Below are positions 3,872 through 55,552 of a stretch of DNA of 64,000 bases, piece by piece. The stretch covers positions 577,006 to 641,005 of the forward strand of contig NZ_OESQ01000001.1 of NCBI RefSeq assembly GCF_900240245.1, in the 5' to 3' direction. How positions within the stretch are numbered: position 1 is the first letter of the stretch; each line of letters begins with the position of its first letter. Below the pieces are notes generated by a model. The model was not told the DNA's origin, did not search any database, and saw nothing but the letters and a program-made list of their open reading frames with translations. The translations under genes and the position numbers were made by a program. Source of the stretch: Lachnoclostridium edouardi. GTDB taxonomy: Bacteria; Bacillota; Clostridia; Lachnospirales; Lachnospiraceae.

Positions 3872-5503
3872 TTATTTCACTGCAGCTATTTCCTGTGCAA
3901 TATTCAGCACATGGTCTCCGATTCTCTCAAAGTCTGTCAGCATTTCAGAATATAAAATACAAGCTTCCTCAGAGCAGACTCCCTGTTTCATTCTTTCAAT
4001 ATGAAGCTCTCTGTACTTTACAGTCATATCGTCGATTTTCTGCTCTAAAGCAGAGATCTTTGAAAGCCAGGTAACTGTCTCCAGTTTGGGCTCCTCCAAA
4101 TATGCAAATATTTCTCCGCATACCTGCTGCATTTCCTCAATTTCCTTTTTTGCTCCCTCAGAATATATAATTTGATTTTCACTTTTAATTTTCGTGTACC
4201 CGCTAATATTTACAGCGTGATCTCCGATTCTTTCAATATTGCCTAAAGCATTAAAATACGCGCTGATGGTTTCCGAGCTTTTTTCATTTGTCTCATAAAC
4301 CAGCATTTTAGATATAGAACAGCTGATTTCTTTATTGAGAAAGTCTATATATTCCTCTCTTTTTTCAACGTTTTCCATAATCTTAATATCACTGTCTAAA
4401 AAAGCCTGGAAGCTGTCGTGCACATTCTTTTTAGCCATATTCATCATTCTGAATACTTCCTGCTGCAGCTGTTCAATATAAATGGCTGAGTAACCAATAC
4501 CGCTTTCAGAAACTCCATTTACGCTTTTTAAATACCGCAGGGACATTCCCTCTTCCATGTCCTCTTCTCTGTCAGGAAGAATCTTTTCAGCCAAAGAGGC
4601 CAGATTTGTTCCCAGAGGCAGAAGCAGCAAGGTAGTAACAATATTAAATAAAGTATGCATATTAGCAATCTGGGCAGCCGGTCCATAGGGAGTAAAAGAC
4701 TCTACCAAAGACACTAAAGGCGTTACCATACAAATAATTGTAAACACAATGGTACCAATAATATTAAACATTAAATGGATCACTGTTGTTCTTTTGGCAT
4801 TGCGGCTGGTGCCGATTGAAGCCAAAACAGCTGTAATACATGTGCCGATATTCTGTCCGAAAAGCACGTAAACAGCGCTTGGCAGGCCGATAACTCCGCT
4901 TGTGGCCAATGCCTGTAAAATACCTACGGAAGCAGAGGATGACTGAATTACTGCCGTAAATAACGCGCCGGCTAAAATACCAATCAGAGGATTGGAGAAT
5001 TTTGTGATCAGATCAATAAAGGCCGGAAGCTCCCTGAGAGGCAGCATAGCCTCGCTCATCATTTCCATGCCAATAAAAAGAATTCCAAGTCCTGCCAAAA
5101 TCTCGCCAATATGCTGAGCCTTTTGGTTTTTCACAAAAGTAACCATGGCAACGCCGGCAAATGCAAACAAAGGGGCTATGGCTCCTACGTCTAAAGCAAT
5201 CAGCTGCCCTGTTATAGTAGTACCAATATTAGCGCCCATAATAATCCAAACTGCCTGGCGCAGATTCATCATTCCAGAGTTTACAAATCCTACTACCATA
5301 ACCGTGGTGGCTGAAGAGGACTGAATCACTGCTGTAATTCCTGCTCCTACAGCTACGCCCATAAACCGGTTTGCCGTCAGCTTTTCTAAAAGCTGTTTCA
5401 TCTTATTTCCCGCCGCGGCTTCCAGTCCCTGCCCCATCATCTGCATTCCGTAAAGGAACAGCGCCAAACCTCCAAGCAGGCCTAATATGTCTGTAATTTT
5501 CAT
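3872..5503 (-). CDS. Na+/phosphate symporter (PNaS family) with C-terminal PhoU-like domain
   Basis: A 543-residue membrane protein. The first 310 residues hold two inverted halves of the Na/Pi-cotransporter fold, each with the signature Q-S-S-S-A: AVIQSSSATTVM near residue 60 and AVIQSSSASVGI near 180. Residues from about 340 to the end are soluble and alpha-helical and match the PhoU-like domain often fused in bacterial NptA/YjbB proteins. The expected role is sodium-coupled movement of inorganic phosphate across the cytoplasmic membrane. The ATG at 5503 follows GGGGAGAA. The gene stands alone, with its own terminator and with a PhoP-box-like array just upstream, which supports a phosphate role. 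Confidence 0.93.
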   Translation of the reverse strand: MKITDILGLLGGLALFLYGMQMMGQGLEAAAGNKMKQLLEKLTANRFMGVAVGAGITAVIQSSSATTVMVVGFVNSGMMNLRQAVWIIMGANIGTTITGQLIALDVGAIAPLFAFAGVAMVTFVKNQKAQHIGEILAGLGILFIGMEMMSEAMLPLRELPAFIDLITKFSNPLIGILAGALFTAVIQSSSASVGILQALATSGVIGLPSAVYVLFGQNIGTCITAVLASIGTSRNAKRTTVIHLMFNIIGTIVFTIICMVTPLVSLVESFTPYGPAAQIANMHTLFNIVTTLLLLPLGTNLASLAEKILPDREEDMEEGMSLRYLKSVNGVSESGIGYSAIYIEQLQQEVFRMMNMAKKNVHDSFQAFLDSDIKIMENVEKREEYIDFLNKEISCSISKMLVYETNEKSSETISAYFNALGNIERIGDHAVNISGYTKIKSENQIIYSEGAKKEIEEMQQVCGEIFAYLEEPKLETVTWLSKISALEQKIDDMTVKYRELHIERMKQGVCSEEACILYSEMLTDFERIGDHVLNIAQEIAAVK

Positions 5504-5806: not shown

Positions 5807-6715
5807 TTAGAACAGAGGCACTACTGCGCCCTGATACTGTTCTTCCATAAATGTTTTTATTTCATCACTTGTAAGGGCTTCCATAAGAGCTTTAATGGCC
5901 TCATCATTTTCTTTTCCCTCCTGCACTGCCACTACGTTTCCGTATGTAGTTGCGCCGATAGAGTCTGAATCCTCAATAGCCAATGCATCTTCCACAGATA
6001 ACCCGGCGTCAATGGCGTAGTTTCCGTTAATAACCGCAATATCTACACTGCTAAGAGAACGTGGAATCTGAGCTGCCTCTACCTCGTAAATATCTAACTT
6101 CTTCCCATTTTCTACAACATCATTTTTTGTAGCTTTAAGACCTGCGTCCTCTTTCAGCTTAATCAGCCCCTGAGCCTCTAAAAGTAAAAGAGCTCTGGCT
6201 TCGTTTGTAGCATCATTAGGAACCGCTACCTTAGCTCCCTCTGCTAACTCCTCCAGAGAAGCTGTTTTTCCTGCGTAAATTCCAAATGGCTCATAGTGAA
6301 TTGCCCCTGCAGAAACCAGCTTTGTGCCTCTCTCAGCGTTAAACTGCTCTAAGTATGGGCCGTGCTGGAAGTAATTGGCGTCTAAATCTCCTGCGTCTAA
6401 GGCCAGGTTTGGCTGTACATAATCTACATATTCCACAATCTGAAGATCATATCCTTTTTCCTTCATAAGCTCCTTAGCTGCTTCTAAAATTTCTGCATGA
6501 GGAGCAGGGCTTGCGCCTACTTTTACAGGTTTTAATTCCCCTGCTGCTTCTGTAGACTCTGCTGCTTCTGAGGTTTCTTCCTTGTCTGCTGTTTCTTTGC
6601 TTTCAGCTGCTGTTGTCTGCTGTGCAGAAGACTCCTCTGCTTTGTTTTGGCCGCAGGCTGTGAGAGCTGCTGTTGCAATTGCTGCCGCTGCAAGGATTGT
6701 CACAAATTTCTTCAT
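5807..6715 (-). CDS. metQ: Methionine-binding lipoprotein MetQ
   Basis: A 302-residue NlpA-family binding lipoprotein. It has a signal peptide with lipobox LTAC around residues 18-21, then an acidic Ser/Ala/Glu linker, and the family core beginning KVGASPAPHAEIL near residue 66. Other family motifs are VDYVQPNLALDAGDLDANYFQH and VPNDATNEARALLLLE. It binds methionine, or methionine derivatives, outside the cell and hands it to MetI-MetN. It is the last gene of metN-metI-metQ and ends just before a strong terminator. Binding preference within NlpA proteins varies (L-Met, D-Met, dipeptides), so the exact ligand is inferred from the operon. Confidence 0.95.
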   Translation of the reverse strand: MKKFVTILAAAAIATAALTACGQNKAEESSAQQTTAAESKETADKEETSEAAESTEAAGELKPVKVGASPAPHAEILEAAKELMKEKGYDLQIVEYVDYVQPNLALDAGDLDANYFQHGPYLEQFNAERGTKLVSAGAIHYEPFGIYAGKTASLEELAEGAKVAVPNDATNEARALLLLEAQGLIKLKEDAGLKATKNDVVENGKKLDIYEVEAAQIPRSLSSVDIAVINGNYAIDAGLSVEDALAIEDSDSIGATTYGNVVAVQEGKENDEAIKALMEALTSDEIKTFMEEQYQGAVVPLF

Positions 6716-6783: not shown

Positions 6784-7449
6784 TCACCGAACTCTTTTGT
6801 CGCTGATTCTGGACGCCTTCATAAATGTTTCCTGGATAATCTGCACTACAATCACAAGAAGAATGACTGTTACTGCCATAGTGTCTATTTCATATCTGTA
6901 ATAGCCATAATTAATTGCAATGGCGCCTAAACCGCCGCCGCCTACAAAGCCTGCCATAGCAGAATATCCTAAAATTGTTGTTACTGAAATAGCCGCCCCT
7001 ACTAATAAAGAGGGCCTGGCTTCAGGAAGCAGCACCTTCCACACAATCTGACCTGTAGTAGCTCCCATAGACTTGGCTGCTTCAATTACTCCTGCATCCA
7101 CCTCTTTAAAAGAGGATTCCACCATTCTGGCAATATATGGAGCGGCGGCAAATACTAGGGGAGGGATGATAGCCTTAGAGCCAATTAACGTGCCTGCGAT
7201 TACTTCTGTTATAGGAATTACCATAATAAGCAGAATAATAAACGGAATAGATCTAAGCAGGTTAATAAACAGCCCCAGTATTTTCTGGAATACCGGCATA
7301 GGCTTTATTCCTCCCTTATCTGTAACTATTAAAATTATTCCCAGAGGAATTCCGATTAAATAAGCAATGGCAGATGAAACCAGGGTCATATATACTGTTT
7401 CCCAAATTCCCCTTGCCATCATTGAAATTGTTGTGGAATCAAAGGTCAT
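6784..7449 (-). CDS. metI: Methionine ABC transporter permease MetI
   Basis: A 221-residue inner-membrane permease with five to six membrane segments. It has the EAA loop motif (EAAKSMGATTGQIVWKVLLPEA, residues about 125-146) that docks to the ATPase, and the typical MetI C-terminal part with GLGAIAINYGYYRY. The start ATG at 7449 lies inside the last codons of metN, with AGGAGGTGA 7 bases upstream, so translation is coupled by an 11-base overlap. It forms the channel of the MetNIQ importer. Confidence 0.96.
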   Translation of the reverse strand: MTFDSTTISMMARGIWETVYMTLVSSAIAYLIGIPLGIILIVTDKGGIKPMPVFQKILGLFINLLRSIPFIILLIMVIPITEVIAGTLIGSKAIIPPLVFAAAPYIARMVESSFKEVDAGVIEAAKSMGATTGQIVWKVLLPEARPSLLVGAAISVTTILGYSAMAGFVGGGGLGAIAINYGYYRYEIDTMAVTVILLVIVVQIIQETFMKASRISDKRVR

Positions 7450-8467
7450 TTTCTGTCACCTCCTCAAAGGGTACTTTTGAGGCAGTCAGATAATTTATCA
7501 TCCTTCTGGCCTCTATTTCATCTTCAGACAGCTGGATAATCATTTGTCCCATTGCTGTTCCCTTAATGTCCTTTGTAGCTGCATACATAATGTTTACAGG
7601 AGATTTACAGGCCAGAATCATGTTGGCCAACACCGGCTCGTCGGAAGCTCTTCCGTCAAAAATAATACGGATCATTTTAGACTTTCCAAAGTCGCCGCTG
7701 TGAACAGTATCCCCCATAATCAGCTGCCTTCCAATATTGGATTTAGGCATTGAGAAAATCTTAGCCACAGATCCTACCTCTGCAATCTGGCTGTTGTCAA
7801 TAATAGCTACCCTGTCGCAAATAGCTTCAATTACCGTCATCTCATGGGTGATCACAATCACTGTTACTCCCATTTTTTTGTTAATTTCCTTCAGCAGATT
7901 TAAAATAGCCTTAGTTGTGTTAGGGTCCAGGGCGCTGGTGGCCTCGTCGCAGAGCAAAACCGCCGGGTTGGTAGCCAAAGCTCTTGCTATAGCCACTCTC
8001 TGCTTTTGCCCTCCTGAAAGCTGAGCCGGATAAGCCTTGGCCCTGTCTGTTAAACCTACTAACTCTAGCAGCTCCTCCGCTCTTTTTTTAGCCTGATCCT
8101 TAGGGGTTCCAATAAGCTCTAAAGGAAAACAAATATTTTGTATTACGTTTCTCTGAGCCAACAGGTTAAACTGCTGGAAAATCATGCCCATAGATCTTCT
8201 GGCTTTTCTGATTCCCCCTTCCCCCATCTTAGACATTGGCTGTCCCTGGAAAATCACATCCCCGCTGGTGGGAACCTCCAAATAATTAATACACCTTACT
8301 AAAGTACTTTTTCCCGCCCCGCTAAGGCCGATAATTCCAAAAATTTCTCCCTGCCAAATATCCAGATTAATATTATCCAGGGCCTTTACCGTCCCATTTG
8401 ACGTAATAAATTCTTTTCCCAGCTTCTCCAGCCGGATAATAGGACTGTCCTGCTTCCTCTCTTCCAT
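7439..8467 (-). CDS. metN: Methionine ABC transporter ATP-binding protein MetN
   Basis: A 342-residue ABC ATPase. Walker A GLSGAGKST is at residues 47-55, the signature LSGGQKQR near 145, and Walker B VLLCDEATSALD follows. From about residue 265 there is the C-terminal ACT-like NIL domain, which in characterised MetN proteins binds methionine and inhibits transport when the cell is replete. It is the first gene of the transporter operon; AAGGAGG precedes the ATG. Upstream lie a terminator hairpin and a Met-rich leader ORF, which suggest control by attenuation in addition to the protein-level feedback. Confidence 0.96.
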   Translation of the reverse strand: MEERKQDSPIIRLEKLGKEFITSNGTVKALDNINLDIWQGEIFGIIGLSGAGKSTLVRCINYLEVPTSGDVIFQGQPMSKMGEGGIRKARRSMGMIFQQFNLLAQRNVIQNICFPLELIGTPKDQAKKRAEELLELVGLTDRAKAYPAQLSGGQKQRVAIARALATNPAVLLCDEATSALDPNTTKAILNLLKEINKKMGVTVIVITHEMTVIEAICDRVAIIDNSQIAEVGSVAKIFSMPKSNIGRQLIMGDTVHSGDFGKSKMIRIIFDGRASDEPVLANMILACKSPVNIMYAATKDIKGTAMGQMIIQLSEDEIEARRMINYLTASKVPFEEVTENDL

Positions 8468-8484: not shown

Positions 8485-8524
8485 AATAAACAATAAAACA
8501 AGCCCACACATTATCTGCATGGGC
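8485..8524 (-). terminator. Terminator-like hairpin in the metN leader (candidate attenuator)
   Basis: On the minus strand GCCCATGCA pairs with TGTGTGGGC (9 pairs, two of them G-T) around loop GATAA, followed by a T-rich tail. It ends 18 bases before the metN start, between a promoter and the gene it precedes, so it can only make sense as a conditional terminator. A second small hairpin (GATGCC/GGCATC, 8556-8578) lies just upstream. Confidence 0.75.
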
Positions 8525-8606
8525 CTGCGAATATACTTTCACTCTTTTCAACCTGGATGCCCTCTTTAAAAAGGCATCTTCACAAAAACCATACATGAAC
8601 CTGCAT

Positions 8607-8699
8607 TTAATTTTTGACGCGCACAAACATACGGCACATGACTTTCATCATGCCGGTACACATCATCATGCAGTTGTTCATGGTTTTAGCTGCGAACAT
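8607..8699 (-). CDS. Met/Cys-rich leader peptide upstream of metNIQ (30 residues)
   Basis: This ORF is too short for usual gene calls. ATG at 8699 is preceded 8 bases upstream by a perfect AAGGAGG and lies about 40 bases after a consensus promoter. The 30-residue product contains nine methionines and three cysteines; the middle reads NNCMMMCTGMMKVMCRM, and the end VRVKN is basic. It has no signal peptide or known domain. The Met codons, the position before metN and the terminator hairpin between the two suggest a translated leader that senses charged tRNA-Met. This is inference from layout; a Met/Cys-rich metal-binding peptide is the main alternative. Confidence 0.7.
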   Translation of the reverse strand: MFAAKTMNNCMMMCTGMMKVMCRMFVRVKN

Positions 8700-8747
8700 A
8701 GGTCTTTCCTCCTTGAGTCATCTCAATCCTTATCTATGTTATGGTTG

Positions 8748-8776
8748 ATTGTATGTCAAAATACATGTATTGTCAA
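8748..8776 (-). promoter_or_regulatory. Promoter of the Met leader-metNIQ transcript
   Basis: On the minus strand: perfect TTGACA (8776-8771), 17-base spacer, TACAAT (8753-8748). The expected transcript starts near 8741, leaving about 42 bases before the leader ATG. That is too short for an S-box or T-box. Confidence 0.85.
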
Positions 8777-8784
8777 GCAATTTT

Positions 8785-10212
8785 TTATCTGCACAGCTGC
8801 ACAATCACCTGAGCAAAAATTTTAGCCGCCATTGTCAGTTCCTCTACATAGGCAAACTCGTCGGCTCCGTGCATCCGATTGTCTGTGCCAGGCATAGCTG
8901 CTCCAAAAGCCACCCCGTTTTTCAGGCTGTGAACATAGGTGCCGCCTCCAATGGCCAGGCACTCTCCCTTATTTCCTGTATACTCTTCATATACATTTAA
9001 AAGAGTGGAGATAAACGCGCTGTTTTCATCTACATGGTGAGGAGGAACCATATTTTCTGTAAGAAACTTAAAACCCTTCTCCTCTATTTTTTCTTTTGCC
9101 TTTTTTAAAGTATTTTCTTCATTGCTGCAGATGGGGCAGCGGCTGTCAAACCATCCCTCCAGCCCTGTCTCCCCAACCTCCAGCATACTAAAAGCTAAGG
9201 TCAGAGGGCCGGAAATATCATCCTTCATAGCAATCCCCAGCTGCTCTCCCAAAAAATCTCCATGGGGAAACATAAGGCTTAATTTTCTTACGGCGTCTAC
9301 AGCTTCTGACTTTTCAAATGGCAATATGGAAATTAAGCTTAAAAGCCCTGTAAGAGCGTTATTTCCCATTTCAGGCTGAGCGGCGTGGGCCCCTTGGCCT
9401 GTGGCGGTAATCTTTACAATTGTATCATCAGGAGCCATGGTGTAGTCGCTGTACTCCATTTCAAAAGATACTCCTGTTGCAGCTTCTGTCTCCCTAGCTG
9501 CTTTTTCCATAATCTCCGCCTGAAATCCCTGAAGCACTGCCCAAGCTTTTCCAGGCGCCACATTCAGCTTTGTACCTGCGTGAATAGACAGCAGTCTGGG
9601 AAGTCCCTCTTCCTTTTCCCATGTGGCTGTAAAATGGCCTTCCAGTCTGCCTTTTTCTGTATTCACTACAGGGAAATCCCCGTCAGGAGAAAAGGTCATA
9701 GGAGCTTCCGGCTCTTTTGCATAATACTGTTCAATATCAGAACTGCCGCACTCCTCATCTGTCCCTAAAATTAAGCGCGCGTTTTTAGATACTGGAATAT
9801 TTAACTCCTTTACCGCCCTCATAGCGTACAAGGCCGCCACTGCAGGCCCCTTGTCGTCGGCAGTTCCTCTTCCGTACAGCTTTCCGTTTTTTATTACAGG
9901 CTGGAAAGGCTCTGTCTCCATCCACCCATCTCCTGCCGGCACTACATCTAAATGTGCCAGAATATCCAGGCATTTTTCCCCTGTATTTAAATCTGCTGTT
10001 CCCACATAAGAGTCATAGTTTTGTATAGAAAAACCGTACTTTTCAGCCATGGCAAGGGCTGTCTGCAAAGCTGCATCCACTCCCTCCCCAAAAGGCATTC
10101 CCTCTTTGTAAGCCATTTTTTCACTGTTAATTCTGCACAGCGTCATAATGTCGTCCAGCATTTCGTCCTTGTGTTCTTCTATATAAGCCTCAATTTCTTT
10201 CCTGTATTCCAT
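8785..10212 (-). CDS. pepV: M20-family dipeptidase (PepV / Sapep type)
   Basis: A 475-residue zinc peptidase. The metal and catalytic residues are seen in DILAHLDVVPAGDGW (His and the following Asp, near residue 80), GRGTADDKGPAVAALYA (Asp ligand, near 115) and LGTDEECGSSDI (catalytic Glu pair, near 150). The C-terminal part has the HGADEFAYVEEL motif that supplies the last His ligand. Length and motif spacing fit the PepV subfamily, which cleaves dipeptides in the cytoplasm during peptide nutrition. Divergence of substrate within the family (e.g. carnosine-like or D-Ala dipeptides) cannot be resolved here. Its stop codon lies next to the -35 of the metN leader promoter, with no clear terminator between. 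Confidence 0.92.
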   Translation of the reverse strand: MEYRKEIEAYIEEHKDEMLDDIMTLCRINSEKMAYKEGMPFGEGVDAALQTALAMAEKYGFSIQNYDSYVGTADLNTGEKCLDILAHLDVVPAGDGWMETEPFQPVIKNGKLYGRGTADDKGPAVAALYAMRAVKELNIPVSKNARLILGTDEECGSSDIEQYYAKEPEAPMTFSPDGDFPVVNTEKGRLEGHFTATWEKEEGLPRLLSIHAGTKLNVAPGKAWAVLQGFQAEIMEKAARETEAATGVSFEMEYSDYTMAPDDTIVKITATGQGAHAAQPEMGNNALTGLLSLISILPFEKSEAVDAVRKLSLMFPHGDFLGEQLGIAMKDDISGPLTLAFSMLEVGETGLEGWFDSRCPICSNEENTLKKAKEKIEEKGFKFLTENMVPPHHVDENSAFISTLLNVYEEYTGNKGECLAIGGGTYVHSLKNGVAFGAAMPGTDNRMHGADEFAYVEELTMAAKIFAQVIVQLCR

Positions 10213-18982: not shown

Positions 18983-18996
18983 ACGTTTTTTTCGCT

Positions 18997-19085
18997 ATGT
19001 CCCTACGTTGGCATTATCCAAATCAGGTCCTGGGTCGAAATTTATTTCCTCTCAGCCTGTAATCAAGCTCCCCTTTTTACGTTTA
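18997..19085 (-). promoter_or_regulatory. TPP (THI-box) riboswitch
   Basis: On the minus strand the conserved blocks appear in order: GGGGAGC, GGCTGAGAGGA, GACCCAGGACCTGATTT, GGATAATGCCAACGTAGGGA. These are the hallmark CTGAGA and ACCTGA/GGATAATGCC elements of the TPP aptamer. It precedes a terminator and the thiXYZ-type operon. Confidence 0.96.
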
Positions 19086-50233: not shown

Positions 50234-50282
50234 AGCAGGGGAAGAGGGGCTCGAACCCCCATCTACGGTTTTGGAGACCGCT
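50234..50282. repeat. Left attachment site (tRNA-Trp 3' half copy)
   Basis: 49 bases identical to 55480-55528, covering the anticodon loop through the 3' end of tRNA-Trp. The 5' half of a tRNA is not present here (the following bases share only patchy similarity), so it is not a functional gene. Confidence 0.9.
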
Positions 50283-50337
50283 ATTCCACCTGCAAATTTC
50301 CTTATTTTATAAGGCTTTCCGCTCTATGCCTTTACTG

Positions 50338-55479: not shown

Positions 55480-55528
55480 AGCAGGGGAAGAGGGGCTCGA
55501 ACCCCCATCTACGGTTTTGGAGACCGCT
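55480..55528. repeat. Right attachment site (in tRNA-Trp)
   Basis: 49 bases identical to 50234-50282; forms the anticodon loop to 3' end of the intact tRNA-Trp. Confidence 0.9.
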
Positions 55529-55552
55529 GCTCTACCATTGAACTATTCCCCT
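55482..55552 (-). tRNA. trnW: tRNA-Trp (anticodon CCA)
   Basis: 71 bases on the minus strand with a full cloverleaf: acceptor AGGGGAA/TTCCCCT, anticodon stem GCGGT/ACCGT with loop CTCCAAA, T-arm GGGGG-TTCGAGC-CCCTC. Discriminator G; CCA is not encoded. Its 3' half is the insertion site of the adjacent element. Confidence 0.96.

Follow-up and report, generated by a model that had tools for sequence, protein, structure and literature searches.

The methionine importer operon metNIQ of Lachnoclostridium edouardi is preceded by a leader that combines a short methionine-rich ORF, competing RNA helices and an intrinsic terminator. We consider it very likely that this leader is a ribosome-mediated transcription attenuator that makes metNIQ expression respond to how much charged elongator tRNA-Met is available. 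An earlier sequence-only reading had proposed such attenuation through a Met leader peptide, and the proposal is now strongly supported at the sequence level by the ORF, the conservation of its Met codons, the terminator, the competing pairings and the association with a Met importer; we infer the stalling of the ribosome, what triggers it and the read-through.

With ample Met, or without translation, region 1 of the leader RNA would pair with region 2 and the terminator would form, ending transcription ahead of metN. When Met-tRNA is short, a ribosome would stall in the first Met cluster (codons 7-14) and cover region 1. Region 2 would then be set free to pair with the terminator 5' arm (region 3), and with this antiterminator in place the polymerase would continue into metNIQ.

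Organisation of the metNIQ leader

The stretch of DNA analysed (64,000 nucleotides, hereafter the window) carries the leader on its minus strand, flanked by a PepV-type dipeptidase gene (8785-10212) and metN. Its elements and the genes that follow are listed below.

8748..8776, minus strand: sigma-70-type promoter, TTGACA-17-TACAAT, 11/12 consensus matches
8708..8714, minus strand: Shine-Dalgarno AAGGAGG of the leader ORF, read directly, 8 nt before the ATG at 8699
8607..8699, minus strand: Met-rich leader peptide ORF, 30 codons, equivalent in 71/80 relatives
8668..8687, minus strand: region 1, the codon 5-11 strand of helix P1, in both the MFE fold and the family helix
8632..8655, minus strand: hairpin within the ORF, CGGCAUGAUGA / UCAUGUGCCG, MFE fold, 3/6 family pairs changed on both sides
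8579..8606, minus strand: region 2, the post-stop box, able to pair with region 1 or with the terminator 5' arm
8556..8578, minus strand: extra hairpin GAUGCC..GGCAUC, after region 2 and ahead of the terminator, MFE fold
8516..8531, minus strand: region 3, terminator 5' arm and antiterminator partner of region 2, duplex -14.5 kcal/mol
8491..8528, minus strand: intrinsic terminator, hairpin 8528-8498 (13 pairs) and U-rich tail
7439..8467, minus strand: metN, methionine ABC transporter ATPase, best NCBIfam match TIGR02314 (349.7 bits, cut-off 499.7)
6784..7449, minus strand: metI, permease, best NCBIfam match NF008049 (211.3 bits, cut-off 212)
5807..6715, minus strand: metQ, substrate-binding lipoprotein, best NCBIfam matches NF008285 and TIGR00363, below cut-off

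The leader ORF (8699-8607) encodes MFAAKTMNNCMMMCTGMMKVMCRMFVRVKN, with nine Met including the start and three Cys. This composition, together with the promoter, the ribosome site, the 30 codons, the terminator and metN, agrees on the minus strand with what had been reported earlier; the terminator hairpin does exist where it had been placed (8502-8524), but that interval holds only its inner part, the full hairpin being 8528-8498. The core of region 2 reads UGUAUGG...UUGUGAA at 8595-8579, and the stretch holding the extra hairpin is variable in the family alignment. Models of MetN, MetI and MetQ/NlpA were the top NCBIfam matches for the three genes, each under its curated cut-off, MetI by just 0.7 bits. 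Downstream of metQ lies an Na/Pi cotransporter gene with a C-terminal PhoU-like stretch (3872-5503, minus strand).

The window leader matched no Rfam family at gathering scores, nor when the threshold was relaxed to E 1. This covers the T-box (RF00230, with its specifier-bearing stem I and T-box antiterminator) and the SAM-I riboswitch or S-box (RF00162), both of which the earlier reading had likewise judged absent. The leader RNA is predicted to fold at -82.6 kcal/mol as compared with -57.7 kcal/mol in dinucleotide shuffles (z -5.8; 0/200 as low).

Conservation of the leader ORF

Eighty relatives were drawn by MetN alone from bacterial and archaeal species genomes, a sample independent of the leader. 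Comparison of their metN upstream regions, the check suggested by the sequence-only reading for Lachnospiraceae, recovered a short Met-rich ORF with a ribosome site in 71/80, nearly always with a terminator; metI follows in 80/80 loci and metQ in 79/80. The nine loci without the ORF are L005, L026, L031, L038, L048, L066, L074, L076 and L079, with just 147 nt of upstream DNA in L048, and the ORF starts 13 nt from the contig end in L030 and L055. A promoter-like site (at least 10/12 matches, no more than 180 nt ahead of the leader ATG) is present in 67/69 relatives with sufficient DNA, a count made with no shuffled control. As a gauge of chance occurrence, only two comparable ORFs (14-60 codons, ribosome site, at least six Met) lie off the leader position on both strands of the 80 loci and the window, L014:2930 and L067:6090.

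Met codons were kept while other codons drifted, as the earlier reading had anticipated, over 45 aligned leaders. Retention was 37/45, 42/44 and 42/45 at codons 7, 9 and 11, and 42/45, 43/45 and 44/45 at codons 14, 17 and 21, while drifting positions include codons 2-5, 12, 18, 26 and 28. Gaps within the ORF are multiples of three in 21/24 cases, and across 72 leaders the mean number of internal Met is 8.6 per 27 codons in frame, compared with 0.07 and 0.44 when the other two frames are read. Located between a promoter and the first gene and equipped with a ribosome site, the ORF thus appears to be translated, judging by its in-frame gaps and frame contrast. The synonymous share of single-base codon differences is 0.31 in frame and 0.21 in each of the other frames, a mild enrichment of the kind that selection on RNA pairing and codon identity, and not on the peptide, would produce.

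The 45 leaders (alignment A1, from a total of 72) were chosen after a first alignment had been seen. Left out were an extended-ORF group (L002, L003, L004, L006, L008), a mouse Hungatella group (L009, L012, L018, L019, L028, L030, L052, L055, L059, L075), seven others (L023, L057, L064, L068, L071, L072, L077) and close kin of kept rows (L016, L021, L042, L045, L047). R1 was built from 29 leaders.

Distribution and probable exchange with T-boxes

A covariance model of the leader matched 25 places in 24/397 evenly drawn genomes of the family, a lower bound, since stricter filters applied in searches of more than 40 genomes. metN is present in the locus at 24/25 of these places, the exception being L111, which lies at the end of its contig; the accompanying ORF scan read a single strand, so that for oppositely oriented loci it is the presence of MetN that was established. 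A class-wide draw yielded the leader in 2/391 genomes, both also within the family sample. Eight genomes checked for multiplicity had one strong match apiece, and the search for second copies in them returned only weak matches (L089, L090, L091; E 0.03-0.6), none with metN. Two similar Met-rich leaders were observed in genome G332, L111:162-73 (minus strand, at the contig end) and L112:110.

Each of the genomes of 8/8 relatives carries one S-box, located away from the leader. Rfam was searched at 8/9 leaderless loci (not L048) and at 3/71 leader loci, and none of these 11 has a SAM-I riboswitch upstream of the operon. T-boxes stand ahead of metN in 4/8 of the leaderless loci (L031, L074, L076, L079), and no T-box matched in the leader loci L001, L025 and L046. 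The T-box specifier is AUG, as placed by the Rfam alignment in L074 and in L118 (a locus described below) and by eye in the same stretch of L079 and L031. The four T-box loci group with L005 in a clade of the MetN tree (100/84) that is nested in a leader-bearing clade (15 rows, 100/96). The plain reading of these sequences is that one tRNA-Met sensor has probably replaced the other at the metN operon. The gap between pepV and metN holds the leader in 36/71 leader loci and the T-box in L031; metN follows a pepV-like gene directly in L005, and another gene lies between them in L026.

One leaderless locus, L066, retains the terminator with the leader ORF absent, which counts against the proposed mechanism. 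Inspected by eye, L066:3820-3980 still has the conserved terminator ahead of metN, along with a site resembling a promoter, and so represents a natural leaderless variant.

Divergent Met-rich leaders

A set of 100 genomes of the family that the covariance model did not match yielded 39 MetN loci (17 from 40 genomes and 22 from 60). A different Met-rich, mostly Cys-containing ORF with a terminator precedes the importer genes in 6/39 (L123, L124, L136, L137, L144 and L153, the last ahead of metQ-metN), and eight further ORFs passing the same Met filter have no terminator. Pairing between the post-ORF region and the terminator arm was rarely equalled by shuffles in L123 (2/300 as low) and L144 (11/300), similarly to the covariance-model match L112 (3/300), and was middling in L124, L131, L137 and L153 (27-46/300). 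L136 was rejected: its ORF and terminator are present, but the antiterminator pairing is absent (252/300 shuffles as good). A pattern for this second leader type matched 2/397 genomes (G033, G045) and missed G032, which holds L123.

A seventh divergent leader, L131, is ahead of metQ in G045. This Met/Cys-rich leader and its terminator (L131:1568-1370, minus strand) precede metQ, and the best MetN match of G045 is on another contig without such a leader, so that in this case the leader apparently accompanies the importer rather than the metN gene.

T-boxes were also detected at L135 and at L118 (88.9 bits, just below the gathering score of 93). This search covered 34/39 loci, 17 of them first at gathering scores with only L118 again more loosely, and in the second MetN batch 17/22 loci, leaving out L138, L148, L150, L151 and L152.

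The main leader, the unrelated-looking Met/Cys-rich leaders and the Met T-boxes could together be read as tRNA-Met sensors of different kinds with which the importer slot of Lachnospiraceae has repeatedly been fitted, the leader itself serving as a sulfur gauge that reads both Met and Cys. We regard this combined reading as unlikely.

Competing RNA helices

Three helices compete in the leader: P1, the antiterminator and the terminator. P1 joins ORF codons ~6-10 (CCAUGCAGAUGAA) to the post-stop box (UUCAUCUGUAUGG), and in the antiterminator the box (UGUAUGG...UUGUGAU) pairs with two segments of the terminator 5' arm, CUGUGCA and GUCGCAA. In the window, P1 comprises 18 bp between 8687-8668 and 8606-8585 (MFE fold), and the antiterminator pairs 8595-8579 with 8531-8516 at -14.5 kcal/mol. 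The terminator is commonly 50-80 nt past the ORF stop, nearer in longer-ORF forms, and its core is conserved; only a poor terminator hairpin was found in L071.

Since the helices were defined on the same sequences, 45/72 picked after inspection, the paired percentages are favoured: terminator pairs formed in 91.6% of cells, P1 and the ORF hairpin in 92.2% as compared with at most 54.1% when slid, and the antiterminator in 87.6% as compared with at most 49.7% when slid. Both-side changes occur at 6/12 terminator pairs, with 49 double-change cells versus 14.8 in shuffles. P1 and the ORF hairpin together have 29 such cells versus 11.2 in shuffles, and 4 such pairs versus 3.4; changes on both sides affect 3/6 pairs of the ORF hairpin but only 1/13 pairs of P1, of which the distal half is gapped in 10-15/45 sequences. 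The antiterminator showed no covariation above shuffles (2 double-change cells versus 1.4; 211/500 shuffles as high), which is expectable, though not proof, where one strand has to serve two alternative helices.

Duplex energies were computed over all 72 leaders. P1 averages -17.0 kcal/mol versus -9.4 in shuffles and is better in 65/72; the antiterminator averages -16.1 versus -10.7 and is better in 67/72. P1 fits the alignment poorly in L014-like leaders, the window and L001, and in the latter two the helix has its own register. The antiterminator and the anti-antiterminator are predicted to be mutually exclusive, and their pairings beat slid and shuffled controls.

A different alternative pairing had been suggested earlier, between CUGCAUG in the ORF (8673-8667) and CAUGCAG in the terminator 5' arm (8521-8515). 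Its complementarity is real (-8.8 kcal/mol), but as an antiterminator the pairing is unsupported outside the window. We rejected ORF-to-terminator pairing as the family antiterminator, given a mean of -11.0 kcal/mol versus -9.7 in shuffles, with 49/72 leaders beating the shuffled mean. In the window, this pairing with its flanks reaches -14.6 kcal/mol, about equal to the -14.5 of the post-stop-box antiterminator, so energy alone cannot separate the two in this sequence, and our confidence in the mechanism was trimmed very slightly on this account. CUGCAU also lengthens the helix that sequesters the post-stop box in the MFE fold of the window.

Modelling a ribosome on the leader

To model translation, we folded the transcript as far as the terminator loop, keeping the ribosome footprint single-stranded and placing the P site at even codons from 2 to 30. 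Across 72 leaders, median sequestration of the terminator arm was 0.41 without a ribosome; it lay at 0.57-0.70 for P-site codons 2-14, and medians exceeded the no-ribosome state at even codons 2-18. With the P site at codon 6, where Met7 is awaited, the median was 0.67, with a rise of more than 0.2 in 32/72 leaders, a fall in six and little change in the rest. With the P site at codon 8, sequestration falls in 15/72 leaders, and at codons 20-24 the median is 0.32-0.37 (0.37 at codon 20). In the window leader, the value of 0.23 without a ribosome rises to 0.85 at codon 6 and stays at or below 0.33 at every modelled position from codon 8. With an earlier, simpler model in which all RNA 5' of the ribosome was masked, 29 leaders went up and 10 down out of 72 at codon 12.

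In this model, a ribosome at the first internal Met codon would free the box in many, not all, leaders, and the first Met cluster would consequently be best placed to hold the control codons. The model leaves the late Met codons (17-21) and the Cys codons unaccounted for. In some leaders, such as L002-L006, the ORF extends beyond the box, and there a ribosome completing translation would cover the box directly.

The Cys codons raise the prospect of a dual sulfur amino-acid sensor, in which both Met and Cys codons are read and a shortage of either opens metNIQ; imported Met would also feed Cys synthesis. Cys22 is present in 45/45 aligned leaders as either of its codons (TGC 35, TGT 10) and Cys27 in 33/45, and divergent leaders are Met/Cys-rich as well (5 Cys of 25 in L153, 6 of 35 in L123). 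However, the TG(C/U) of codon 22 falls within the covarying ORF hairpin, so RNA pairing can explain Cys22. Moreover, sequestration rises in 0/72 leaders when the ribosome is placed at even codons 20-24, and in 12 and 4 of 72 at codons 26-28, where falls outnumber rises. Cys sensing through codons 22 and 27 is therefore disfavoured by the footprint model, and we hold dual sensing to be distinctly unlikely.

Very unlikely in our view is nascent-peptide arrest, whereby the Met-rich peptide, with methionine or SAM bound to it in the exit tunnel, would stall the ribosome. It would suit the conservation of non-Met positions (Q8, N10, G16, C22), but their codons fall in P1 or the ORF hairpin, where an RNA constraint can suffice, and the divergent leaders share Met codons and little further sequence. 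Arrest by an abundant ligand would also seem to need the opposite logic or another antiterminator.

The strong leader fold (z -5.8) and conserved helices could suit a translation-independent riboswitch, a novel aptamer for SAM or Met in which the ORF would be accidental. In-frame gaps, a ribosome site and Met retention are unexpected for an aptamer, Rfam has no match, and an ORF and terminator are common to the divergent leaders, all of which makes a riboswitch exceedingly unlikely. We give almost no credence to a functional Met/Cys-rich small protein, for example a Cu(I)-binding one unrelated to metNIQ control, since, despite a composition like that of metal-binding motifs in general, 24/25 covariance-model matches have metN in the locus, the terminator and competing helices come after the ORF, and T-boxes stand in the leader's place in some relatives.

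Relation to known systems

Classical leader-peptide attenuators control the his, trp, thr, leu, ilv and phe operons of Proteobacteria. The attenuator proposed here resembles them in its short ORF rich in codons of the regulated amino acid, its competing helices and its terminator before the first gene, and differs in its amino acid (Met), its importer gene, its clostridial host and the lack of an Rfam match. According to a 2013 survey, the attenuators then in Rfam were those for His, Leu, Thr and Trp, while others were known for Ile/Val and Phe; S-boxes, Met T-boxes and transcription factors are the means by which Firmicutes are usually said to regulate Met genes (PMC3766115).

Published work describes leader-peptide attenuation of his operons in Firmicutes (PMC2965389, PMC9413887) and a Leu-rich attenuator peptide for ilv-leu of Staphylococcus aureus (PMC5794164), and exchanges between T-boxes and leader peptides are noted there. 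As in those leaders, a peptide would here do T-box-like work; they serve other amino acids and operons, and we do not suggest homology. For the met operon of Lactococcus lactis, control of a Met importer by a Met T-box is described (PMC7058034). A Met T-box (RF00230) has in principle the same signal (tRNA-Met charging) and the same output as the leader, but it binds uncharged tRNA directly, without translation, and none is present in the window.

The closest precedent for the target operon is metL of Streptomyces lividans, a leader predicted upstream of metNIQ and a weak candidate (PMC8079986). The metL peptide has 29 aa ending in CMCRRMCAF, with Met and Cys as in the leader described here, but differs in having two internal Met only, a leaderless transcript, no clear terminator and an actinobacterial host. 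The sequence-only reading had known of no described Met leader peptide in Clostridia; our search of the open-licence full-text literature, judged largely from listings, likewise found no paper on one, and the Streptomyces metL candidate is the published case, if a weak one, that the reading had not mentioned. The proposed mechanism is classical and known in Firmicutes, and its Met specificity would be new save for that prediction.

Methionine would be added to the set of amino acids sensed through leader peptides, here in gut bacteria of the Lachnospiraceae. The T-box and the leader peptide, unrelated sensors of tRNA-Met supply found before the same importer and once in the same gap, constitute a natural swap in which both designs can be compared side by side.

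Elsewhere in the window, a TPP riboswitch (RF00059, 59.9 bits) is located at 18983-19084 on the minus strand. The same strand holds a tRNA gene at 55482-55552 and, at 50239-50301, a tRNA match that is borderline at 29.3 bits (gathering score 29).
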